A stretch of DNA of 57,751 nucleotides from a virus: IMG/VR virus record IMGVR_UViG_3300023109_000027, positions 1 through 57,751 of that record. The stretch is one strand, 5' to 3'. Shown one piece after another: positions 7,241-57,751 of the stretch. Each line of letters starts with the position of its first letter. Positions within the stretch are counted from its first letter, which is position 1. Both the position numbers and the translations under genes were made by a program. Under the pieces are notes generated by a model, which saw only the letters and a program-made list of their open reading frames with translations, made no database searches and had not been told where the DNA came from.

Positions 7241-7405
7241 CTATTTGTCAAAAACATGGCCCAAGCCCCCGCAGGTCGGCACGGGGTGCGCGGTCGGCGG
7301 ATTCCGGTCGATTTGGGTTTAACCTAGGCGGTTTGACCCGATATCGGGGGGACCCGAGGCTATTTGCCGGGGCAATGTATGCGATATTGTCCAGGCTATT
7401 CGGTC

Positions 7406-7426
7406 CAGCTGCTGCAGCTGCTGCAG
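7406..7426. repeat. CAG/CTG triplet patch
   Basis: Seven consecutive triplets alternate CAG, CTG, CTG, CAG, CTG, CTG, CAG. The patch extends a partial third copy of the neighbouring CCGGTCCAGCTG unit. Confidence 0.7.
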
Positions 7427-7439
7427 TTAATTGACGCTC

Positions 7440-7524
7440 GATCCGGTCCAGATCCGCGTCGTTCCGGTCCAGCTGGTGGCGATCGATCCGGTCCAGATCC
7501 GCGTCGATCCGGTCCAGCTGGTGG
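7440..7524. repeat. Two tandem copies of a 45-bp unit
   Basis: The 40-base core at 7440-7479 recurs at 7485-7524 with one mismatch. Each copy itself holds two related half-units, CCGGTCCAGATCC and CCGGTCCAGCTGG. This layered structure resembles iterated protein-binding sites. Confidence 0.85.
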
Positions 7525-7544
7525 ATTTAACTGCCAGCTAGCGT

Positions 7545-7572
7545 CGGATCGGGGCGGATCGGGGCGGATCGG
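7545..7572. repeat. Short tandem repeat GGATCGGGGC
   Basis: A 10-bp unit is repeated about 2.6 times, adjacent to the 45-bp repeats and within the same GC-rich block. Confidence 0.75.
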
Positions 7573-7714
7573 CGGCTCTCTCGTCGATCTCGTTGTCGAT
7601 CGCTGGGTATCTGGGCACCGGATCGACCAGAACGAACCATATCCCACGGTCCACGGTTCATGGTCGGTAGGTTTAAGCCAAGGGGCGGGGCGCGGGGGTC
7701 GCAGGTGTCACTAA

Positions 7715-12576: not shown

Positions 12577-12999
12577 GTCGAAAAGAACAGGCCAATCAAA
12601 AGGATTTGTGCCTTCATACACCGGATCGGTCTTTAGCCCGTCTGTTTTGACCGCTATTGCCTGATCCGCACGATACAAAAGAACGACAGGTTTTTTCCCC
12701 CAGTTCTGATGCTGCTTAACCAATATCCAACTGCTACTGTGTCGGTGCCTCGTTAGCCAAGAAACTTGGTGCGGGCTTAACCGTACCGCATTGGCCTTGC
12801 AAAACTTTAATTCTACAAAATGAAATAGCCCGCGTTCATCGCAGATCATAAGGTCGGGTATGCCCTGACCGACAGAGTTTTCTATTCTAGTCAGGCTTAA
12901 CTGGGGCCTAACCTTTTTCGCGGCTGTCCTCAACTGTTGATAAAACGCCGCTTCCGTCGGAATCTTCGGTTGGGGTAATGTCGATAATGTCTGAGCCAT
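12559..12999 (-). CDS. PD-(D/E)XK nuclease, VRR-NUC or Holliday-junction-resolvase-like
   Basis: The 146-residue protein has a compact nuclease signature: E40, GIPDLM with D49, then FHFVELKF with E63 and K65, the D...ExK core of this superfamily. Small stand-alone members act on branched DNA or aid recombination and packaging. The ATG at 12999 has AAAGGA six bases upstream. The gene overlaps the small terminase gene by 92 bases in another frame, an unusually long overlap. Its C-terminus houses the promoter of the next operon. Confidence 0.7.
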   Translation of the reverse strand: MAQTLSTLPQPKIPTEAAFYQQLRTAAKKVRPQLSLTRIENSVGQGIPDLMICDERGLFHFVELKFCKANAVRLSPHQVSWLTRHRHSSSWILVKQHQNWGKKPVVLLYRADQAIAVKTDGLKTDPVYEGTNPFDWPVLFDLISPI

Positions 13000-13567
13000 T
13001 GGATTCCTTTAGTTCCTTCAACGCTTTCATCACCTCATCCTTGTCCATGTTGTCGATACTGCCGTGTCTGATCTCCGCCTTGCTAACGTATATATCACCC
13101 TGCGCCTGTCCCCGTCTATACTCGGCTTGTACCGCGGCACTGTACGCCCCGTTTTCGAGGGCCACATCACGGATTTTCTGCAAGTCTCGAACGTGTCTGC
13201 TGTAGTTGATGGCAAAACGTTCATCCAGTTCGTTTCGATACCGCCTGATAGCTGCCACAACATGCGGGCATTTGTGAGGGTTGGTTAACTCATATGCACG
13301 GGTGTGGGCTGAACTCTCGGGGTAGCCCGCTCGAATAGCGGCTTCCTTATAAGTTATCATACCATCGTTGCTTACAAGCTCTTTTACAAAAAGCTCCTGC
13401 TTACGCGTCAAAGGGCTGTCCGCTGTCTTATACTTCGCGCCTCGGGGATCAGAACGGTTGGCCTCTTTATCCACGGCTAGTCCGGTATGCTTTCTAGGGA
13501 TAGGCCTCGCTTTAATCCTCAAGGGCTTGGGGAGTTTTGCAAGATCAGCGTTTGTTTTTTTAGGCAC
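12908..13567 (-). CDS. Terminase small subunit
   Basis: The 219-residue protein contains a Terminase_2-type DNA-binding domain at about 50-130: LTRKQELFVKELVSNDG, TYKEAAIRAGYPESSAHTRA, then a basic recognition segment VVAAIRRYRNELDERF. Small terminases recognise pac or cos DNA and hand it to the large subunit. The N-terminus is basic and the C-terminus acidic and disordered-looking. I use the GTG at 13567, preceded by GGAGAGAACC; a GTG 12 bases earlier is possible. It is separated from the large subunit by about 5.7 kb. Confidence 0.8.
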   Translation of the reverse strand: MPKKTNADLAKLPKPLRIKARPIPRKHTGLAVDKEANRSDPRGAKYKTADSPLTRKQELFVKELVSNDGMITYKEAAIRAGYPESSAHTRAYELTNPHKCPHVVAAIRRYRNELDERFAINYSRHVRDLQKIRDVALENGAYSAAVQAEYRRGQAQGDIYVSKAEIRHGSIDNMDKDEVMKALKELKESNGSDIIDITPTEDSDGSGVLSTVEDSREKG

Positions 13568-13611
13568 GGTTCTCTCCACTGCAAATAACTATACAATACC
13601 TTTTAGCAACA

Positions 13612-13861
13612 TATAGTATACCCCGCCAGAAAAACTTTCGTAACTTTTTTCGTGGGGATTTTGGCTTAACGCAGAAGGCGGCTTAACCATTTTGGTCAAA
13701 AAAGTGCCAAAGTAACACCTATCTTTAGTATGGAGTTACCGAAAATGTTACCCTTTTTTGCCCTTTTTTTGTTTGATTACATACTGGTAACTTTTATAAC
13801 ACCGGTAACGCCTATATTTTTCGTTTTTTATTTTTTTATTTTTCTGGGAGGGTATACTATA
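13612..13861. other. AT-rich control region with GTAAC boxes, framed by a perfect inverted repeat
   Basis: TATAGTATACCC (13612-13623) and GGGTATACTATA (13850-13861) are perfect inverted 12-mers. The gene-free interval between them holds six GTAAC or GTTAC boxes (13640, 13712, 13735, 13747, 13787, 13805), with a seventh at 13865, and long T tracts. Two of the boxes form a direct repeat, GGTAAC plus a TATA run. The layout suits a replication origin or a divergent regulatory region ahead of the small terminase gene. Confidence 0.6.
13615..13643 (-). promoter_or_regulatory. Putative promoter of the small terminase gene
   Basis: A good -10, TATACT, lies about 48 bases upstream of the GTG. The -35 (TTACGA, 17-base spacer) is poor and overlaps a GTAAC box, as expected if an activator is needed. 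Confidence 0.4.
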
Positions 13862-14009
13862 AGTGTTACTAACGATACAGGCTCCCGCCTAAATTAAGAC
13901 GAGAGCCTGATCCGCGATCCTGCCACCACTATGTCAAAGTGGCCTACCGCGTGAGAGTGTTAAGCGACCGCTCCCTGCGCAAAGGCGGGTTAAAACCCCT
14001 AAACCCGCC
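13862..14009. other. Non-coding stretch with hairpins
   Basis: No gene is supported here. CAGGCTC (13878-13884) can pair with GAGCCTG (13903-13909), a copy of the dispersed 15-bp motif follows, and GGCGGGTT (13984-13991) pairs with AACCCGCC (14002-14009) right after the stop of the next minus-strand gene. The last hairpin may end that operon, though its U-run is weak. An outward plus-strand transcript from TATACT at 13853 would fold these elements. Confidence 0.45.
13906..13920 (+). repeat. Copy of the dispersed 15-bp motif
   Basis: CCTGATCCGCGATCC in a non-coding stretch; the core TGATCCGCGATC is identical to the copy at 14669. Confidence 0.6.
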
Positions 14010-14363
14010 CTATTCGATTAGATTGATTTCTTTTGGCGGTTCACCCAGTTCGAGCCGGACGATTATTCTGTTGCTTTCCTTGTCATGCTCAAACGTCATA
14101 ACGTCCCCTGCTTTGGCGCGTCTTGTCAGTCCTTCGACGGACAGGAGTTTATCGCCCCGCGGTCGGCGGTACAATCTTATTTGTGTTGGTGTATATTCGT
14201 GACCATCGTCGTAGTGCGCCAGTATAACGTTTTTGCCTCCATTTTCTATGAAGTCGTATCCCAACTCGGGTAGGCATTCCCGAAAGAATTTTACGACGCT
14301 TTTATTGGCGTCTATGATGCTTTTGTTGAGCATTCGTTGTGTGATGTTTATTCGGGCTTTCAT
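14010..14363 (-). CDS. Hypothetical protein, possibly a beta-barrel DNA-binding domain
   Basis: 117 residues. The C-terminal half (LSVEGLTRRAKAGDVMTFEH, then NRIIVRLE) resembles the strand-turn-strand pattern of B3/EcoRII-N-like or AbrB-like barrels, where a helix is followed by A-G-D and a beta hairpin. The N-terminal half is helical and basic. The ATG follows TTATGGAGAACTATT. The gene overlaps the previous one by 62 bases in another frame. The DNA-binding idea is only an inference. Confidence 0.5.
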   Translation of the reverse strand: MKARINITQRMLNKSIIDANKSVVKFFRECLPELGYDFIENGGKNVILAHYDDGHEYTPTQIRLYRRPRGDKLLSVEGLTRRAKAGDVMTFEHDKESNRIIVRLELGEPPKEINLIE

Positions 14364-18233: not shown

Positions 18234-20129
18234 CTATACCGCTTCGCCCCATGACGGACCCAACTCAACGTCACAAAGGCTTGGCAACTCCAAGGGTACA
18301 GCATTTTGCATGATTAGTGCAACCTTTTCGGCCTCTTCTCGTGACTTTACTGACATAGCCAGTTCATCGTGTATTTGCAGCATGGGCAGATAACCTTCTC
18401 GGTACAGATCGACCATAGCTTTTTTGGTCATGTCCGCGGCGGACGCTTGGATCAGCCTGTTGAGTGCTTTGTAGGTGTACGCTCTGACTAGCGGGGTGTG
18501 CTTGCCGTGTTCTAGTACGGCTTGCTCGAACGGCAGGGCTTTAAACATTCCAAACTGCTTTGGTTCCCACAACTCAAACCGACACTTCCGGCCTAGTAGG
18601 GACCGTACATGGCCTCGGCTTCCTTTCTGACTAAGGTGACTTTGTACGCCCTTCATCAGTTCTTTCACAAACGGCACCCGCTCATGGTACTGGTTGATTA
18701 GGCTTCTGGCCTGTTCCTCGGGCAGATCAAGTTCAATCGCCAGCTTACCCACGCCCATGCCGTACATAATACCAAGGTTCACGGTCTTCGCTTGTTTACG
18801 CGGGATGCCCGCCATTTCTGCCACCATCGTATGGAAGTCGGTCCGCGGATCGTCATTGTAGCTTTGTATAAACTCTGTGACGCCCCCTAGCACTCTGTTC
18901 TGGCTTTTACCAAATACGTGTGCGTAGTGAACCAAGATGCGCGGTTCTTGTTGGGAGTAATCTATAGCGGCCCATTGTTCTCCTTCTTCCGGCAGAAACA
19001 GGGACCGGATCATTGGTCCTATCTCAGGGTCGCGGGCGGGGATTTGTTGTAAGTTGGGGTTATTCATGGAGAACCGCCCAGATACAGTACCGCCGTCGTC
19101 TGATCTGATTTGGTTTATGTGACTGTGTATACGTCCATCTGAGTTACAGAAGGTCAGGATGTTGTTGATGAACGTGCCTGACGTTTTGTTGAGGTTCCGC
19201 GCTTCTACGATCAGTTTAGGTAACTTATCGGGATGTTCTGACAGGAACTTCTTGGTGAAGGACGGAGAGCCTTTTTCTGTTTTAAAGTATTCTATGCCCA
19301 TTTTATCGAAGGCTTTGGCAATGGACGCCGCGGCCCAGATTTCTATGTCGCAGCCGGAGATACGTTTTATTTCTTTATGGACTTCTTTCTCACGCTTTAG
19401 GATTGCGTTCCGCGTTATTTCTGCTTTGTCCATATCGACGCGAATACCGCGCCATGTCATGTCTACAAGGCAGGGCAGAAGGTCCAGTTCGAGTTCTGTA
19501 ACGGCCTCAAGGTTTTCCTGTTTGATCTGTACAGACAGGTAGTCCCACAGTTTAAGCGTAATCTCTGCATCGTTCTGTGCGTAAGGCCCGACAAACATTG
19601 CGGGCATCTTCCACATTTCTGCTTTTGCATCGAACCCAAACTCCACCGCGGCGGCGTTTAATAGTTTTTCTGATTTGGCTATGCCTAATAGTTCGTAGCA
19701 GAGGTTGTTGAGACTAAAGCTTCTACGGTTTTCATCAAGCAGGGACGCCACAACCATCGTGTCGATCACACGGCCCTTTACATCAAAGCCCATGCGCTTG
19801 ATCCAGCCGAGGTCATACTGAGCGTTGTGCATGACTTTATCTGCGGGGCAGTCGAATATCTTTTTGAGCCACTTGTTAACTTGTTTTTCGTCTAGGTTAC
19901 CGCCGCCTTGGTGCCTGATGGGGATATATCCGGCCCAATCTGTAGTTGCCACGGCGTACCCCACCACTTCGCCGTCACCTCTAGCCCATCCGGGGCCCAT
20001 CTTTTTAAGGTTCGGGTCTTTGGTTTCCACGTCGATAGCGATTGTTTTGGCGTGTGTTAGGTCTGGCAGTTCGTGTGGCGGCACCCATTCGGATAAAAGG
20101 GACGCGCTGCCTACTGTTAGATTACTCAC
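18234..20129 (-). CDS. Family A DNA polymerase with 3'-5' exonuclease
   Basis: The 631-residue replicative polymerase has a proofreading domain (IAIDVET, D33 and E35; HNAQYDLGW, D106; YAQNDAEIT, D187) and a polymerase domain (motif A AAIDYSQQEPRIL with D390; motif B RKQAKTVNLGIMYGM; motif C QIHDEL with D588). The residue equivalent to E. coli Pol I Phe762 is leucine (L452). No 5'-3' exonuclease domain is present. I choose the GTG at 20129, preceded by GGGAG and overlapping the previous stop; an upstream ATG lacks a ribosome site. A terminator follows. Confidence 0.93.
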   Translation of the reverse strand: MSNLTVGSASLLSEWVPPHELPDLTHAKTIAIDVETKDPNLKKMGPGWARGDGEVVGYAVATTDWAGYIPIRHQGGGNLDEKQVNKWLKKIFDCPADKVMHNAQYDLGWIKRMGFDVKGRVIDTMVVASLLDENRRSFSLNNLCYELLGIAKSEKLLNAAAVEFGFDAKAEMWKMPAMFVGPYAQNDAEITLKLWDYLSVQIKQENLEAVTELELDLLPCLVDMTWRGIRVDMDKAEITRNAILKREKEVHKEIKRISGCDIEIWAAASIAKAFDKMGIEYFKTEKGSPSFTKKFLSEHPDKLPKLIVEARNLNKTSGTFINNILTFCNSDGRIHSHINQIRSDDGGTVSGRFSMNNPNLQQIPARDPEIGPMIRSLFLPEEGEQWAAIDYSQQEPRILVHYAHVFGKSQNRVLGGVTEFIQSYNDDPRTDFHTMVAEMAGIPRKQAKTVNLGIMYGMGVGKLAIELDLPEEQARSLINQYHERVPFVKELMKGVQSHLSQKGSRGHVRSLLGRKCRFELWEPKQFGMFKALPFEQAVLEHGKHTPLVRAYTYKALNRLIQASAADMTKKAMVDLYREGYLPMLQIHDELAMSVKSREEAEKVALIMQNAVPLELPSLCDVELGPSWGEAV

Positions 20130-20412
20130 TTTTTTCTCCCGAAAAAGACCCACCGATTGCGCTGTATCCGCACTTGTCGATCCATGAGTCTTCATGGTCT
20201 AGGGTGTTTAGTAGTCTTGCTGTTTTAACCCAATCCATCATAAGCGCAACGTGCTGCGCGGTTAGGTATCCATGCGAGGCTATTGCCCCGTTTAGAATTA
20301 CGTTCCACCCTGTAGCGATACGGTCAAAGTTTTCGAGCGCGTCACCGTAGTCTTTTGCACGGTTGCCTGTCACTAACTCTGCACTTTTTTTTAGTATTTC
20401 TTCTTTTTTCAT
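20122..20412 (-). CDS. DUF6378-like phage protein (96 aa)
   Basis: Starts at the ATG fused to the previous stop (ATGA). The segment NRAKDYGDALENFDRIATGW and the later LMMDWVKTARLLNT resemble a conserved phage family of unknown function often found beside replication genes. The HEDSWIDKCGYSAIG end also fits that family. The protein is helical and soluble. Family name is from memory of the motif. Confidence 0.6.
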   Translation of the reverse strand: MKKEEILKKSAELVTGNRAKDYGDALENFDRIATGWNVILNGAIASHGYLTAQHVALMMDWVKTARLLNTLDHEDSWIDKCGYSAIGGSFSGEKSE

Positions 20413-20777
20413 GTATTTACGTCTTCCCATTGATTTACTTCTGCGTAAAAGTTCCCCGTGCCGCGACTTTTGCACACTTGAGCGTTAATCCACTCTGAGT
20501 CACCGCTTGTTAAAAGCCAATCAATTAGTTCTACGCGGTTAATATTTAAAGTGAACATCACCCATTCAGGAGAGCTTTCTTGCGGGGCTTTTGTGTACAG
20601 TCCTTTTACAAACAACTTTTCTTTACGTTTCTTTTTACGTCGTTTAATACCTAGTTCCGCGGCTAGTTTATCTGCCTTTGCCTTACACGCTTGAGCTTCT
20701 GCGGGGGAGCAAGCAGGGTCCATTGCCTTTTTTAAAAGATTTTCTAATCTTTCGTAAGCTTCTCTTCGATTAATCAT
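20409..20777 (-). CDS. DUF2786-like protein (122 aa)
   Basis: The N-terminal helix pair (RLENLLKKAMDPACSPAEAQ, then KADKLAAELGIK) matches the DUF2786 pattern of two helices separated by a short acidic loop. A lysine/arginine cluster (RRKKKRKEK) follows. The C-terminal half is unknown. Start chosen at 20777, overlapping the sigma-like gene's end; an upstream extension would read through that gene. Confidence 0.55.
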   Translation of the reverse strand: MINRREAYERLENLLKKAMDPACSPAEAQACKAKADKLAAELGIKRRKKKRKEKLFVKGLYTKAPQESSPEWVMFTLNINRVELIDWLLTSGDSEWINAQVCKSRGTGNFYAEVNQWEDVNT

Positions 20778-21408
20778 TGAGAAGGTCCATGCCTCTGTTG
20801 GTTGTGCGCGGATTGTTGTTTTTTTTAAACTTTTGAAGAACACGGTTATATTCTCCGTGCCGAGAGCCTGTAGTGAAGTAACCCGCAACCAAAGCTGCGC
20901 CTTTCATCTTTCTAATGGCTTTGGCTTCTACTTGACGCACTCTTTCCCGCGTAACGCCAAAGACTCTGGCAGTCTCGTCTAAAGTATGGCCCAGTGCCCA
21001 GCGCATTGCCATGCATTGACGTTCTCTCGGGGTCAGGTTTTCAGATAACTTTGAGATAGCACTGATCTGAGACAAAGACTTTTCGGAAGTTCCGTCTTGA
21101 ATTAGTTGCTTAACGCTGTCTAAATCAACTTCCATTTCAGCGGTTGATTTAATTAGCTTCAACTCACGGAGGTGGTCAGGCCATAAATCCTCGGGCTCCT
21201 TTCCCACCATTGCTGCAACGTCCAAGGCTAAATCTGTCCAACCGTTTTGGTTAAATGGCTTTACCTTCATGGTAACCAAACTGTTTACTCTGGATTGATG
21301 AAGGTGACATTTACGGGCTAAATCCGCCACTGAATCGTAACGAGCCCTAATTGCTTTTAACAACCTGCCGTTTCTAACCGATATTTTAATGTTGAAATCT
21401 TCGCTCAT
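20770..21408 (-). CDS. Regulator with Xre-like N-terminus and sigma-70 region 4
   Basis: 212 residues. Residues 125-170 are a clear sigma-70 region 4: LTPRERQCMAMRWALGHTLD, then GVTRERVRQVEAKAIRKMKG, the helix-turn-helix that reads -35 elements. The N-terminal half (DSVADLARKCHLHQSRVNSL) resembles a phage repressor-type helix-turn-helix, and no sigma region 2 is seen. The protein probably redirects host RNA polymerase or acts as an activator at the phage's TTGA-type promoters. It sits in the replication operon, coupled on both sides. Confidence 0.75.
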   Translation of the reverse strand: MSEDFNIKISVRNGRLLKAIRARYDSVADLARKCHLHQSRVNSLVTMKVKPFNQNGWTDLALDVAAMVGKEPEDLWPDHLRELKLIKSTAEMEVDLDSVKQLIQDGTSEKSLSQISAISKLSENLTPRERQCMAMRWALGHTLDETARVFGVTRERVRQVEAKAIRKMKGAALVAGYFTTGSRHGEYNRVLQKFKKNNNPRTTNRGMDLLND

Positions 21409-21584: not shown

Positions 21585-21892
21585 CGGAACAAGTTGCTTT
21601 CCCATTCAGTAACTTCGTGGATATGCGTGTGTTTACAGGTAGGCTTTATTTTCCCTATCTTTGTGATCCAACCATATTGGTTTAAAACACGAACCATAGA
21701 ACACCATACGTTATGGTGATGCGGGTCAGGCATACCTTGTTCTCTGCAAAAAGCGCACAAGTGACCCCCCTCTAAATACCTATTCTTCTGTAAGAACTTA
21801 ACGGCATTCTCAAAGTATTGCTTTTTCCAATCATCATCTGCAGCCTCAAAGGCTCGTTCTATTTCTGTTTGGATAAACTGTTCTCGGCTCAT
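21581..21892 (-). CDS. Cys/His-rich hypothetical protein (103 aa)
   Basis: A helical N-terminus is followed by HLCAFCREQGMPDPHHHNVW and KPTCKHTHIHEVTEWES, which together offer enough Cys and His for a metal site. The segment MVRVLNQYGWITKIGKI looks like a helix plus wing. A nucleic-acid-binding role is plausible. Coupled to the helicase gene by ATGA. Confidence 0.55.
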   Translation of the reverse strand: MSREQFIQTEIERAFEAADDDWKKQYFENAVKFLQKNRYLEGGHLCAFCREQGMPDPHHHNVWCSMVRVLNQYGWITKIGKIKPTCKHTHIHEVTEWESNLFR

Positions 21893-23424
21893 ATGTCGTA
21901 ACTCCTGTTTAAGTTTTCGCCTTCGATAATAAACAAACGCTCTCGGGTCCGCGTGACGGCAACGTAGAACACGCGGTGCATATCGTCGGGTCTTTCGGTC
22001 ATATCTTGTTGAGCCGCTGCGCTAATGTCCGAGAACACTACAACGTTGTCGGCCTCTCCGCCTTTGGTGCCGTGGATCGTGGACACTATGATACGGGGCG
22101 TTCCGTTAAATCGTTCTCCGCGTCGAAGCAGAGCGATTATATATGCCCTGTCTCTTTCTGGCAGACGGTCCATAGCTTCATGCCAAAGCATATCTTTTGT
22201 TGCGAGTAGCCCGTGGTTAACATTTAGGTCTTGCATGTTAACCATCTCGGCGTCTTCCAAACCTTTGAGGCGCTTGAAGCCCTTTTTTATTCTTTGGCAA
22301 GAGTTGATAGAATCCTTAGCGGACATGTACTCATAGATGTTCCGCGCTGTTTGCCCTGTAACGCTTTGGCCCTTACGCAGTTGCTCCCACCCGTTTACCG
22401 CGTCACTGATCTTAGCGGAGATGGACCGTGAGCCGCGATACTCGAACAGGTAACCGAAGGACTTTAGGTATTGCGCCACGGGTTCTAGCATGTATCCGGC
22501 TTGCGCCATTATGAGCCAAGAGCCTTCTGACAGGTCAATGTCCATAATATCTCGGTAGTATCCAACTTCGCCCATTTCTTGTCGGGGTTCGTAGTTCTTT
22601 ACGACGCGCCGTTGAATGCGTTTGACTATGCCTTCTGCCACTTTGTGTACGCTGTATGGAATGCGATAGGATTGGCTTAGTGTATCTGATCCGCCTTCGA
22701 GGTTTATGAAAGCGTCCACGTCGGCTCCGGCCCAACGGTAGATAGCTTGGTCATCGTCACCCGCGACATACATTCGTTTAGAGCGTTCATCTAACAGGTG
22801 GGCAATATCCCACTGCATTGGAGAGAGGTCTTGCGCCTCGTCCACAAAGCAGAGTTCAAAGTTCGGACAGAAGTTGGAACCTTCTGTTACAAAATTTTCC
22901 AGCATGTCTGTAAAGTCAAATTTGTGCCGGACCTGTTTGTATCGCCCAAGGCAGCTATCGACGTAATTTATCTCATTCCATGTAAGATGTGTGTTGCTCA
23001 TGTCGTATTGTTTACGCAGAGGCACTTTTCTAAGACGCGCCAGATTTATCAACCCTAAGATTGGATCAGACGCTTTCATCATGTCTGGCAGATCGTCATC
23101 AAAATTAACGCTTTTGGTGGTTACAAGATGTACGCCCATACCCTCAGATAGTTCACGGTAATCAGACGGCTGCATTACTTGTTCGGGGCTTATGTCTGAC
23201 AGTGACAACGCTAGACTGTGGATAGTGCGAAAGAAGTACAGGTCCTTTTTTGGGTCCAACTTAAACCGTGCAGCGGCGCGTTCTTTAGCTTCTTCTGCGG
23301 CTTTTCTGGTGAAGGCTAAGAAAGCAATCTTGGTTGGCTCTATTCCGCTTTGCAAGGCGTTATCAACCTTATTGAGTAGTGTTGTTGTCTTCCCCGTCCC
23401 CGGAGGTCCGAATATCCGATACAT
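21889..23424 (-). CDS. UvrD/PcrA-like superfamily 1 DNA helicase
   Basis: 511 residues. GPPGTGKT at 6-13 (motif I), a Walker B VDEAQD at 194-199 (motif II), VAGDDDQAIYRWAGA (motif III), STIHGTKGGEADNVVVF (motif V) and FYVAVTRTRERLFI (motif VI). It lacks the large 1B/2B insertions of full-length UvrD, as is usual in phages. It probably unwinds DNA at the fork or in recombination. It contains a copy of the dispersed 15-bp motif. GGGAG lies nine bases before the ATG. Confidence 0.9.
   Translation of the reverse strand: MYRIFGPPGTGKTTTLLNKVDNALQSGIEPTKIAFLAFTRKAAEEAKERAAARFKLDPKKDLYFFRTIHSLALSLSDISPEQVMQPSDYRELSEGMGVHLVTTKSVNFDDDLPDMMKASDPILGLINLARLRKVPLRKQYDMSNTHLTWNEINYVDSCLGRYKQVRHKFDFTDMLENFVTEGSNFCPNFELCFVDEAQDLSPMQWDIAHLLDERSKRMYVAGDDDQAIYRWAGADVDAFINLEGGSDTLSQSYRIPYSVHKVAEGIVKRIQRRVVKNYEPRQEMGEVGYYRDIMDIDLSEGSWLIMAQAGYMLEPVAQYLKSFGYLFEYRGSRSISAKISDAVNGWEQLRKGQSVTGQTARNIYEYMSAKDSINSCQRIKKGFKRLKGLEDAEMVNMQDLNVNHGLLATKDMLWHEAMDRLPERDRAYIIALLRRGERFNGTPRIIVSTIHGTKGGEADNVVVFSDISAAAQQDMTERPDDMHRVFYVAVTRTRERLFIIEGENLNRSYDI
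22426..22440 (+). repeat. Copy of the dispersed 15-bp motif
   Basis: CCGTGAGCCGCGATA within the helicase gene (encoding YRGSRS). Confidence 0.6.
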
Positions 23425-23569
23425 TGTTTGTCTCCCGAGTATATATTTGATGGACCCGCTGCTTGGTTATCCCAAACCATTTTGCAACAGCGGTCTTGGT
23501 AACTTTCTGTTCGTCAATCAGACGGACAATTTCTTTGTTCCGCATTTCTTTTAATACGTTGTCAGTCAA
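23369..23569 (-). CDS. Small helix-turn-helix protein (66 aa)
   Basis: VTKTAVAKWFGITKQRVHQI is a good helix-turn-helix (residues 23-42). It may be a small regulator. Start is the TTG at 23569, with AGGAG upstream and the TTGA overlap with the primase stop; an internal ATG lacks a ribosome site. The end overlaps the helicase gene by 56 bases. Confidence 0.65.
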   Translation of the reverse strand: MTDNVLKEMRNKEIVRLIDEQKVTKTAVAKWFGITKQRVHQIYTRETNNVSDIRTSGDGEDNNTTQ

Positions 23570-25101
23570 AACGGACTCTCCTGCGCTTGAAACTGTGGTG
23601 TACTTAATTCTATATCACCGTTTTCAAATGCTGGCACCTTCCATAGGCGCACTACTCGACCTTTTATTTTAAGCAAGCAGCTTTCTCCGGTCACCTCGCG
23701 CAGACGTTGGGCAATCTTGTGGGACTTGTATTCAAAGAACTTGTTCTTCTTTAAAAACCCTTCAAAGTCCTTGAGCCTAAAGTAAGTATACTGCCCTTCC
23801 TCATCAGTCCACGGACGGCGAAGTAATATCTCTTCCCTGTCTTTAGCCTGTTGCATGTGGCTACAGAACTCTTCTAGGAAGTCGTAGAACTGACCACCCA
23901 CTGAGGCGTCAACGGACACTTCTATTATGGCGCTTTGGTTTTCGGTCATTTCACGCATCATCGCGCTGATCCGCGCTTCCCACTGTGCTTTAGCAACGCT
24001 TCGCGGCATGAAGTTAATCTGCTCCATACAGGCTTTTTGAAATAAGGTTTGGTTCATCAGGCCGTCAGTATCCAGTTCGACAGGTTCACTGTTTACGTCC
24101 ATAAACCACACGGGCGGTGTTGAGTTGTACTTACGCAGGTTACCCACAGCGGCATTTTGAGCCGCGGCACCGATACCAAACTTCATGGTCTGGCACAGTT
24201 CTTTGTTGCAGTGCGCGTTGATGGGCGCATCAGAACATTTGTACGAGTAATCCTTTTTGCCGACCTGCTTTGCAACGACGTTTACTTCTGGCAGCGGCAA
24301 GGGCGGGTCTAAAAACTGGGTGTTGTATGTCAGTATCTCTGTCTCCCAGCTATCGGGAAACGCTTTGCGTAGATAAATTCCTATGTTGTACAGGCCGTTG
24401 TTTCTTCCGCCTTCGCTGATCAAAACCTTGGTGAGGTGCTGTAGGCAAGGCGGTCCGTCGGCAAGCGGTCCTTTAACCTGCGCGTCAGTCATCTGAAGTT
24501 TGACTATCTCCTCCGGCGTTTGCACATGCGCCTCGTACAAGCCGAAGAACTCTTCAAGCGTTGCTGACGTGCCGTCATCCAGAATGCCGTATCTTAGGCC
24601 GTCCTCTGCGTCGTAGTAAGGAAGGTTTAGAAAGTTACCTACGTCTCCGCGATCCAAGTGCAGTTTTACTTGCTTGGGGAATATCTCACTACCGCCATAC
24701 CCAAGGGCCGCGGACAGGTGTGTCAGGACCTTCTGCATTTCCTTTGCTTCGACCCATTCCTTACAGAACAGAAAGCAGTGTGCGCCGCCGGACTTTGATC
24801 GGCAGACAACCAATGGCAGCTTCAGGGCCCGTATTTTTTCTATAAGTACTTTGTGGTCTAGCGGGTACTGGTCAACGTCAATGCAGCCCCACTTGCAGCA
24901 ATTATCCTCGTTAATCGGGATGATGCCTACAGAGGTGCCTTTGCCGGACAGGTGACCCTTCCAGAGTTTCGAGGTCCGCGGTTCCTTAATGATACTAGCC
25001 TTGCCAGTATTTTTACCGTTGGACTGAGTTTTTTCAACTTTGTACGTGCCGTAAGCCTGTTTCAAACCATCAAAGATGGCGGAAAACTTATCTGCTGACA
25101 T
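23566..25101 (-). CDS. Archaeo-eukaryotic-type primase (TOTE-like)
   Basis: 511 residues. CIDVDQYPLD holds the catalytic D75 and D77, and RSKSGGAHCFLF (102-111) is motif II of archaeo-eukaryotic primases, with NFLNLPYYD later. The region GGRNNGLYNIGIYLRKAFPD matches the PriCT-type helical domain that follows such catalytic cores. The C-terminal third is winged-helix-like. It should prime DNA synthesis for the family A polymerase. It contains five or more cysteines but no clear zinc finger. Confidence 0.75.
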   Translation of the reverse strand: MSADKFSAIFDGLKQAYGTYKVEKTQSNGKNTGKASIIKEPRTSKLWKGHLSGKGTSVGIIPINEDNCCKWGCIDVDQYPLDHKVLIEKIRALKLPLVVCRSKSGGAHCFLFCKEWVEAKEMQKVLTHLSAALGYGGSEIFPKQVKLHLDRGDVGNFLNLPYYDAEDGLRYGILDDGTSATLEEFFGLYEAHVQTPEEIVKLQMTDAQVKGPLADGPPCLQHLTKVLISEGGRNNGLYNIGIYLRKAFPDSWETEILTYNTQFLDPPLPLPEVNVVAKQVGKKDYSYKCSDAPINAHCNKELCQTMKFGIGAAAQNAAVGNLRKYNSTPPVWFMDVNSEPVELDTDGLMNQTLFQKACMEQINFMPRSVAKAQWEARISAMMREMTENQSAIIEVSVDASVGGQFYDFLEEFCSHMQQAKDREEILLRRPWTDEEGQYTYFRLKDFEGFLKKNKFFEYKSHKIAQRLREVTGESCLLKIKGRVVRLWKVPAFENGDIELSTPQFQAQESPF

Positions 25102-53906: not shown

Positions 53907-54524
53907 TTAAGAAGCAATGTCATAGCCAGTGATTGTAATAAGTAATCTACCCGCTGTATAATCTGCATCTGTTGTTGCACCCGCAGTTAGGTAAAGATAT
54001 TGATCTGCTGCAATATCGCCACCAGCGACCAAACTACCTGCTGCCAAATCACCTGAGTTAATAATCAAAGTCTCAGTTAAATCAGAAATAGGTGTATCTT
54101 CAACACCTGTAGCTTCAGTAGCAGAATGCAAATTAATATCTGGATCACCGCCTGCTGGGGTTTCAAGGCACAGCATGGTTACGCCGAATACTGTACCTTG
54201 ATTTGCCGTTGTAACGCGACCAATGTAAGCAACGCCAGAACCATCTTTACCAATGATGTCACCAGCCGCAGTTGAACGCAAACCCGTAAGATCAATCATA
54301 ATAGTTGTTTTTACGATGTTTACGTTTGTTGCGGTATCGCTTTTAAAACGCTCTACTTGCGTAACGTAAACAGCAGCAGTTCCTTCAATGCCAGCACCGC
54401 TAGCAGCTTCAGTTCCCATTTTCGAACCACTGGTAATGGTAATAGCACCAGTAGTCGCATTTTTAGATACGGTTTCAAAGCCGTTTTCAGACCGAACTGG
54501 TCCGTTAAATGTTGTAGTACCCAT
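53907..54524 (-). CDS. Capsid-associated beta-rich protein (205 aa)
   Basis: The start MGTTTFNGPVRSENGFETVS is shared by structural proteins I know from marine podoviruses; the remainder is a repeated beta-sandwich pattern (ADQYLYLTAGATTDADYTAG). I use the ATG at 54524, with AGGAGATTGAC upstream. It follows a terminator-like hairpin after the capsid gene, so its level may be lower than that of the capsid protein. Confidence 0.6.
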   Translation of the reverse strand: MGTTTFNGPVRSENGFETVSKNATTGAITITSGSKMGTEAASGAGIEGTAAVYVTQVERFKSDTATNVNIVKTTIMIDLTGLRSTAAGDIIGKDGSGVAYIGRVTTANQGTVFGVTMLCLETPAGGDPDINLHSATEATGVEDTPISDLTETLIINSGDLAAGSLVAGGDIAADQYLYLTAGATTDADYTAGRLLITITGYDIAS

Positions 54525-54548
54525 GTCAATCTCCTGTCTTGGGTTAGT

Positions 54549-54567
54549 CAGCCACATCTTGTGGCTG
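54549..54567 (-). promoter_or_regulatory. Leader hairpin
   Basis: CAGCCAC and GTGGCTG pair perfectly around a 5-base loop, 24 bases upstream of the ATG at 54524. Confidence 0.45.
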
Positions 54568-54598
54568 TCAGGGATAAAACAACAATACCATATATCAG

Positions 54599-54653: not shown

Positions 54654-55562
54654 TTACGCTCCGGGTGTTCCGAAGACGCAACGCCAATCTGATACGCCAA
54701 ACGAGTAACGCTCACGCGCTTTAAACCGCATGTTGCCCGTATCAAAATCGCCTTCCATAGCAGTCTTGATCGCAGCACGGTTAAAGTACTTGAAGCCGTT
54801 AGAGGCATCCGTCTTAATAAAGAACGCGTCTGTGTCAGTAAGGAAGTGGTTTACAACCGCTCCTTCTGGCAACATGCCCATGTTCTTCATCGCGTTGTTG
54901 TCGTTGTCCGCAGTGCCGCTACGCAGATTGGAGTTCATAACCCGCTCTGCAATAAACTGAAGCTCTTTTGGAATAATGAGCTTCGTACCGCGAACCGCGA
55001 TTTTTAAACCACGCTCGTCAGTGAACCCTGCAATGTCAATCAACATCTGCTCCAACGAAGTCTCGTTAAGATCAGCCGCTGTAGACAGCAAGTTTCGCTG
55101 GTTGCCGGACAGTGAAGGGTGAGCCGAAGAACACAATGCTGCGCCGTCACCTATTGCATTAGCACCCGTCGAAAACGCGTTGTTCAGGATAGACGCAGCC
55201 TTGATTTGCTTTGTCGTAGCCATCGAACGAGCCAACGCTTTAGTGTACCGCGAAGCCAGACGATCATACAGATTGTCTTCGATTGCTTCCTCTGTGATAG
55301 AGAACGCAAGCGCAATGGTTTCGTGGGAATAACGTGCAGTGTAAGTCTCTTGAGCATCGTCAAAAGAAACCGCGCCGCCTTCACTTTTTACAGGTGCCGT
55401 TGCAAAACCTCCGAGCATAACTTCTTCTTCGAAGGCCCGATCCGAGCTTTCTTCTTCAAAGATTTCGCTATGTTCGTTTTCGTAACGTCCGTACTCAAGC
55501 CCAAACAATGCGTTCAGTCCCGGTTCTAGCTCTTTCGCTAGTTGTGCGCGAGAAATAGCCAT
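54654..55562 (-). CDS. Major capsid protein
   Basis: 302 residues. MAISRAQLAKELEPGLNALF at the start, TARYSHETIALAFSITEEAI, then SRYTKALARSMATTKQIKAA and the terminal FGVSDWRCVFGTPGA match the HK97-fold capsid proteins of many marine podoviruses and Mu-like phages. Position after scaffold-like genes and before a strong terminator, which usually marks the most expressed gene, fits. No N-terminal delta domain is seen, so a separate scaffold (56707-57537) is probably used. Confidence 0.85.
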   Translation of the reverse strand: MAISRAQLAKELEPGLNALFGLEYGRYENEHSEIFEEESSDRAFEEEVMLGGFATAPVKSEGGAVSFDDAQETYTARYSHETIALAFSITEEAIEDNLYDRLASRYTKALARSMATTKQIKAASILNNAFSTGANAIGDGAALCSSAHPSLSGNQRNLLSTAADLNETSLEQMLIDIAGFTDERGLKIAVRGTKLIIPKELQFIAERVMNSNLRSGTADNDNNAMKNMGMLPEGAVVNHFLTDTDAFFIKTDASNGFKYFNRAAIKTAMEGDFDTGNMRFKARERYSFGVSDWRCVFGTPGA

Positions 55563-57546: not shown

Positions 57547-57751
57547 CTAGAAATGCAAAATATCTTCAGGATTAGAGATTTTAGCCAAAACCTCGTCATC
57601 ATTAAGAATACGGACCTCGCCACCGTCGATCTTGAACCGCGAACCCGCGTAACGGGCAAACATTACCCAATCACCCTTCGCGCACCACGGACCATCTGGA
57701 AACTTGTCCCCGTCCTGATACGCCAGTTCCCCGACCTTCAAGACATACCCA
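57547..57751 (-). CDS. GroES-like co-chaperonin, 5' end cut by the window edge
   Basis: The C-terminal 68 or so residues of the co-chaperonin of entry 1-418, including DGPWCAKGDWVMFARYAG (the Cpn10 barrel) and the final ISNPEDILHF missing from the other copy. The apparent start inside this copy (a TTG at 57741) is not a true start. The next gene is the scaffold. Confidence 0.75.
   Translation of the reverse strand, partial: GYVLKVGELAYQDGDKFPDGPWCAKGDWVMFARYAGSRFKIDGGEVRILNDDEVLAKISNPEDILHF
57585..57751. repeat. Right copy of the terminal overlap
   Basis: Matches 1-167 with four mismatches; see the left copy. Confidence 0.9.

Follow-up and report, generated by a model that had tools for sequence, protein, structure and literature searches.

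The intergenic block of approximately 250 bp found upstream of the small-terminase gene (terS) in a near-complete phage genome is, with a probability of roughly 0.8, the phage origin of DNA replication, read by the phage's own AEP-type primase. This reading is supported by the short boxes of the element, the sequence of which covaries site by site with the primase, as is predicted for an origin bound by its initiator. The iteron origin is itself a known form; what is new here is the AEP primase as its probable reader. An origin and its probable initiator are hereby named from sequence alone for a large uncultured phage family.

The element and its surroundings

The DNA analyzed here, referred to as the window, is the whole stretch of 57,751 bp. 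Its ends (1-167 and 57585-57751) overlap by 167 bp with 97.6% identity, and this imperfect overlap indicates circular permutation or terminal redundancy of the genome and a mixture of strains in the assembly. The element fills the gap between the replication-side operon and the small-terminase gene (12908-13579; phrog_51), which lies directly downstream, with all of these genes on the minus strand. The replication-side operon includes genes for the primase described below, PolA (18234-20195, minus strand), and a UvrD-like helicase (21889-23424, minus strand), and small genes lie between PolA and the element. No close DNA relative of the window was found in the phage collection searched; judged by the polymerase, the annotated relatives nearest to it are DSL-LC04 (56%), 023Pt_psg01 (54%), and pelagiphage HTVC023P (49%).

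The first-pass annotation had proposed an origin or control region from two exact inverted 12-mers 226 nt apart, six enclosed GTAAC/GTTAC boxes with a seventh just outside, about a tenfold excess of these boxes, and long T tracts. Both 12-mers were located, TATAGTATACCC at 13612-13623 and GGGTATACTATA at 13850-13861, and neither has a further exact copy within the window. Their symmetry extends to arms of 26 nt that are 88% complementary, and blastn reports the arm repeat as 13603-13634/13839-13872 (85%, E = 1.9e-4). The terminase-side arm (13609-13634) reads TTTTTCTGGCGGGGTATACTATATGT on the minus strand, and the far arm (13839-13864) reads TTTTTCTGGGAGGGTATACTATAAGT on the plus strand. The boxes begin at 13640, 13712, 13735, 13747, 13787, and 13805, with the seventh at 13865, and the repeated unit is 8 bp, GGTAACAC-like in this phage.

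Cluster I (13786-13809, plus strand) has GGTAAC at 13804-13809 and 13786-13791, with a degenerate ATAAC between them and a spacing of about 9 nt. In cluster II (13735-13752, minus strand) the two GGTAAC boxes, at 13747-13752 and 13735-13740, have the opposite orientation. A further box, AGTAAC(AC) at 13711-13716, is oriented as cluster I. The box CGTAAC near the terminase-side arm (13639-13644, plus strand) is missing in many relatives of the clade, and the agreement of the outer GTAAC box just beyond the far arm (13865-13869, minus strand) with the box type is loose in relatives. The long T tracts were confirmed: a T/A tract at 13811-13843 lies between the far arm and cluster I, and its A-tract is kept in relatives. 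Short repeats clustered at a single genomic site are what is found at an iteron-type origin, and the adjoining conserved A/T tract would correspond to the A/T-rich part of such an origin, where it is a candidate unwinding or bending element.

Genome-wide, 113 GTAAC/GTTAC boxes are expected per 57,751 bp, or about 0.5 per 250 bp, and the local excess is therefore nearer 12-fold. Across 300 dinucleotide-shuffled versions of 13580-13900, the mean number of boxes was 1.2 and the maximum 5, as compared with 7 observed. The distant 26-nt inverted repeat matches at 23 of 26 positions in the phage and at no more than 19 of 26 in the shuffles. Both the number of boxes and the symmetry of the arms exceed chance by this measure.

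Conservation in relatives, which had been suggested as a check, was assessed with TerS-anchored IMG/VR loci, from which 84 distinct upstream regions were extracted. The box cluster is present in nearly all of them, and boxes and architecture are kept at the same place in about 80 distinct relatives. The layout common to the family consists of an arm, an A-tract, three boxes spaced by 8-9 nt, a gap of about 50 nt, boxes that are mostly reversed, a further A/T tract, an arm, and terS. The same layout is found in HTVC023P, with 27-nt arms around ACTAGGAAAA repeats, and in DSL-LC04, with 36-nt arms and other repeats. In most genomes checked the element is the site of the densest box cluster. The element was not found in G008, and the MAG contigs L528 and L529 stop short of it. 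CACGG/CGCGG motifs (for example CGCGGACCACGG) recur shortly before the element in many loci, as at about 4829-4841 of L164 and 5703-5718 of L165, and also in HTVC023P and DSL-LC04. The GC-skew shift that had also been anticipated at the element is absent, the detrended minimum being near 7.1 kb; this failure is weak evidence because nearly all genes lie on one strand.

It is also conceivable that the element is a transcription control region, with the boxes as operators, the arms as outward promoters, and the primase or some other factor switching the late terminase and structural genes. The element does sit between the replication and structural modules, and a TATA-like hexamer in its terminase-side arm, some 35 nt upstream of the terS start codon, is conserved. 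There, TTTTTCTGG..TATA is kept in relatives, and TATACT is a possible -10 of the terminase promoter. Beside the element, the intergenic segment 13870-14010 contains hairpins that fold better than shuffled sequences (z = -4.3 and -4.8, either strand) and are conserved within the window's clade; these hairpins resemble terminators of the operon upstream of the element. However, the upstream genes share the orientation of terS, and the far arm would fire against them. In a simple sigma-70 scan, no minus-strand promoter was found at the arm, and promoter-like matches in total were at chance level. Moreover, the boxes are probably read by the primase, an enzyme of replication. Control of transcription as the role of the element is thus unlikely. 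Origin and promoter roles can coexist, and the putative TATA-like hexamers of the arms may additionally serve the terminase promoter; binding near that promoter could serve regulation besides replication.

Box types and their probable reader

Across the relatives, the boxes occur as GGTAAC, GGTTAC, TGTAAC, TGTTAC, GGTTCC, and TGTTCC. The clade of the window contains type A (GGTAAC), type B (GGTTAC), and type C (TGTAAC). Within this clade every main box in a genome is altered at the same position within the box. In the pair L148 and L149, the flanks and arms are common and the entire box cassette is different. That all boxes have switched repeatedly among phages that are nearly identical suggests that the identity of the origin is under strong selection. 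A further box type, TGTACC, is found upstream of terS in L466 and L524; the primases of these two were not found on the stretches fetched.

All three types of the window's clade are found behind TerS proteins that are 98-100% identical, and no TerS residue segregates with the type (15 type A, 2 type B, and 6 type C loci). Concerted changes behind near-identical TerS proteins that have no residue following the type require a trans-acting reader other than TerS. These results bear directly on a packaging site (pac or cosB), at which the boxes would be bound by the adjoining small terminase. The cos and pac sites of phages are often located beside terS, and the position of the element beside terS is constant in the family. 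At a pac or cosB site, however, specificity follows the small terminase, and here it does not: in the 28-genome scan described below, none of the TerS columns is perfect for base 1, and the only one that is perfect for base 4 is a residue at the edge of the alignment. The element of DSL-LC04 is separated from terS by two genes. A packaging site is thus very improbable.

The reverse complementarity of clusters I and II in the window's clade would also permit opposite boxes to pair in a folded single strand, either RNA or ssDNA, with the concerted changes being compensatory. In the L075 and L132 clades, however, most boxes point in one direction and are unable to pair, yet a single sequence is common to them. 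The spacing is unlike between clusters, and pairing leaves the covariation with the primase unexplained. We regard a folded strand as the least probable of the explanations considered.

The covariation was determined by an unbiased scan of the alignment columns of nine conserved proteins across the 28 genomes carrying both the element and the primase. Residue 478 of the primase is K where box base 1 is G and R where it is T, and residue 476 is V where base 4 is T and a different residue where it is A, with no exceptions among the 28 genomes. Position 478 (K in 24, R in 4) is the sole perfect column for base 1 among the 2,429 columns of the nine proteins. Position 476 (V in 19; L, Q, or T in 9) is the sole perfect primase column for base 4 among 511. 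Base 4 is also split perfectly by seven columns in four other proteins (UvrD 86; SNF2 130, 159, and 214; p17951 99 and 103; and TerS 1, at the alignment edge), which are mostly hypervariable or at alignment edges. For 8 of the 28 genomes, the box labels were assigned visually or with a simple G-versus-T rule, the automatic rule having failed or given a mixed base 1. The clade-1 type-B contigs L006 and L010 end before the primase and fall outside the V476 comparison.

The first comparison of primases pointed to residue 478 for base 1, and residue 476 for base 4 was added later. The genomes retrieved once the rule had been formulated obey it, including those with TGTAAC and TGTTCC boxes. Among these later genomes are L470 and L485, with VLK at residues 476-478 and GGTTAC boxes. 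The most telling of them are L347, with LLR and TGTAAC, and two members of the GTTCC subgroup, L450 having K with GGTTCC and L455 R with TGTTCC. In L156 (T476, K478) the boxes are partly degenerate, GGACAC and GGCAC. When changes were counted on a tree from which the C-terminal domain of the primase had been left out, 4 base-1 changes and 5 base-4 changes were found, each with the matching residue change and none opposite; the independent changes are too few for significance by a sign test alone (p = 0.125). The primases of L267 and L269 have W or S in place of K/R at wing position 478, which suggests further box types.

A reader other than the primase, whether a host protein or a different phage protein acting at an origin or a control element, would require that the primase residues hitch-hike with the boxes. 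Some phage genes lie outside the comparison and the contigs are incomplete, which leaves room for such a reader. However, linkage is a poor explanation because the primase gene is about 10 kb from the element. The primases of L085 and of this phage are 99% identical and differ at 478 exactly as their boxes differ, and L347 (LLR, TGTAACAC, TGTAAC) is the sister of G011 (LLK, GGTAACAC), the two again differing at 478 just as the boxes do. The rule also holds in the GTTCC subgroup. We consider a different reader to be even less probable than a packaging site.

Several specific candidates were also rejected. The gene at 20770-21408 (minus strand) encodes a small protein with an XRE-like HTH and sigma-70 region 4 and is 77-99% identical in near relatives. 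This gene is present in the window. Among 12 related records searched, only 2 were found to have it, both of them type A; other type-A genomes lack it, as does the type-C genome L085. For the gene at 14010-14363 and other fast-evolving neighbors, no residue segregates with the box type. The comparison of L148 with L149 gave no convincing swapped reader between the polymerase gene and terS.

The primase and a proposed mechanism

The primase gene (23566-25101, minus strand), which is separate from that of the UvrD-like helicase, encodes a protein of 511 residues that matches phrog_21866 (primase) at 5e-98. Pfam returned AEP-TOTE (1.2e-13) and a weak PriCT_1 match (0.01), with no fused helicase domain. 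The N-terminal part of the structural model resembles CAPP Prim-Pol (E = 1e-8), and the model also matches RepB' (3e-4). Both fold and sequence place the protein in the AEP (PrimPol) superfamily.

AlphaFold models predict a winged helix at the C-terminus (residues 438-490; 23632-23790, minus strand), composed of a strand (438-441), two helices (443-452 and 460-469), and two wing strands (473-479 and 482-490). Residues 476 and 478 are two apart on the first wing strand, within the codons for L-L-K (476-478; 23668-23676, minus strand). No sequence match to the primase profile was found in the PDB. Among solved structures, the wing domain is closest to TcpK in complex with oriT (Foldseek probability 1.00, Z = 8.1), with a weak E-value of 0.02, and the likeness is in fold and not in sequence.

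We propose that the primase is the origin-binding initiator. The residue-base covariation is what would be expected of a cognate initiator encoded by the replicon, as found for iteron origins. The winged helix would bind the boxes with the wing strand entering the box, where the choice of base 1 would be aided by residue 478 and that of base 4 by residue 476. The bound primase would then bend or melt the adjoining A/T tract, lay primers for the phage PolA, and support fork loading, probably with one fork in each direction given the symmetry of the element.

If this is correct, the box type at the origin of any genome of this kind should follow from its wing residues. The 476/478 rule amounts to a directly testable amino-acid-to-base code, and the incompatibility of origin types between co-infecting phages would also become testable. 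A broader proposal, the odds of which we judge to be about even, is that origin recognition in a widespread aquatic phage family is performed by the AEP primase itself, a helicase-less enzyme, through a simple two-residue wing code. The whole origin would have switched together with the primase on several occasions, possibly as an escape from origin-targeting nucleases or competing phages, and a natural set of orthogonal origin-initiator pairs would be the result.

Comparison with known systems

Selection on origin identity has usually been studied only in satellites, plasmids, and geminiviruses. The PLE satellites are a model for origin diversification, in which the origin iterons covary with the DNA-binding domain of the RepA_N initiator and are swapped with it as a module, much as here, and in which an origin-cutting nuclease (Odn) can drive the swaps (PMC8263062). 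The PLE system differs in having a RepA_N initiator and iterons of about 30 bp, as compared with the AEP primase, 8-bp boxes, and single-residue switches of the phage. In geminiviruses, iterons of 5-6 nt differ among close relatives and the iteron-contacting parts of Rep evolve alongside (PMC12548392). The pattern of coevolution is the same, although Rep is an unrelated protein that acts in the rolling-circle replication of ssDNA viruses.

The alpha protein of P4, which binds repeats at its origin, and ORF904 of pRN1 are, like the primase here, multifunctional replication proteins with primase activity and a DNA-binding winged helix (PMC4234260). The phage primase would work like these proteins but is not a member of their primase-helicase group, since both have a fused helicase and none was detected here. 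In addition, P4 alpha has a Toprim primase and pRN1 a stem-loop origin, in contrast to the AEP primase and iteron origin proposed for the phage. TcpK of plasmid pCW3 reads tandem 9-nt boxes of oriT with a beta-wing in the major groove (PDB 5vfx, PMC6137059). Unlike the primase, TcpK is a stand-alone accessory protein of transfer, and with a sequence identity of about 11% the likeness is structural and does not imply homology.

The HTVC023P-type pelagiphages and DSL-LC04 (PMC9599517; MN698239, OR003939) are the nearest cultured or complete relatives by polymerase. In them, too, the intergenic region upstream of terS contains an unannotated element in which inverted arms enclose repeats, whereas the repeats themselves are different and the C-terminus of the primase has diverged. 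Elsewhere in the window, where no tRNA was found, an Rfam Mu-gpT-DE RNA (62 bits; 54522-54573, minus strand) lies just 3' of the major head gene (54654-55562, minus strand), and tandem GATCCGGTCC-like repeats occur at 7396-7647 within a possible reading frame.
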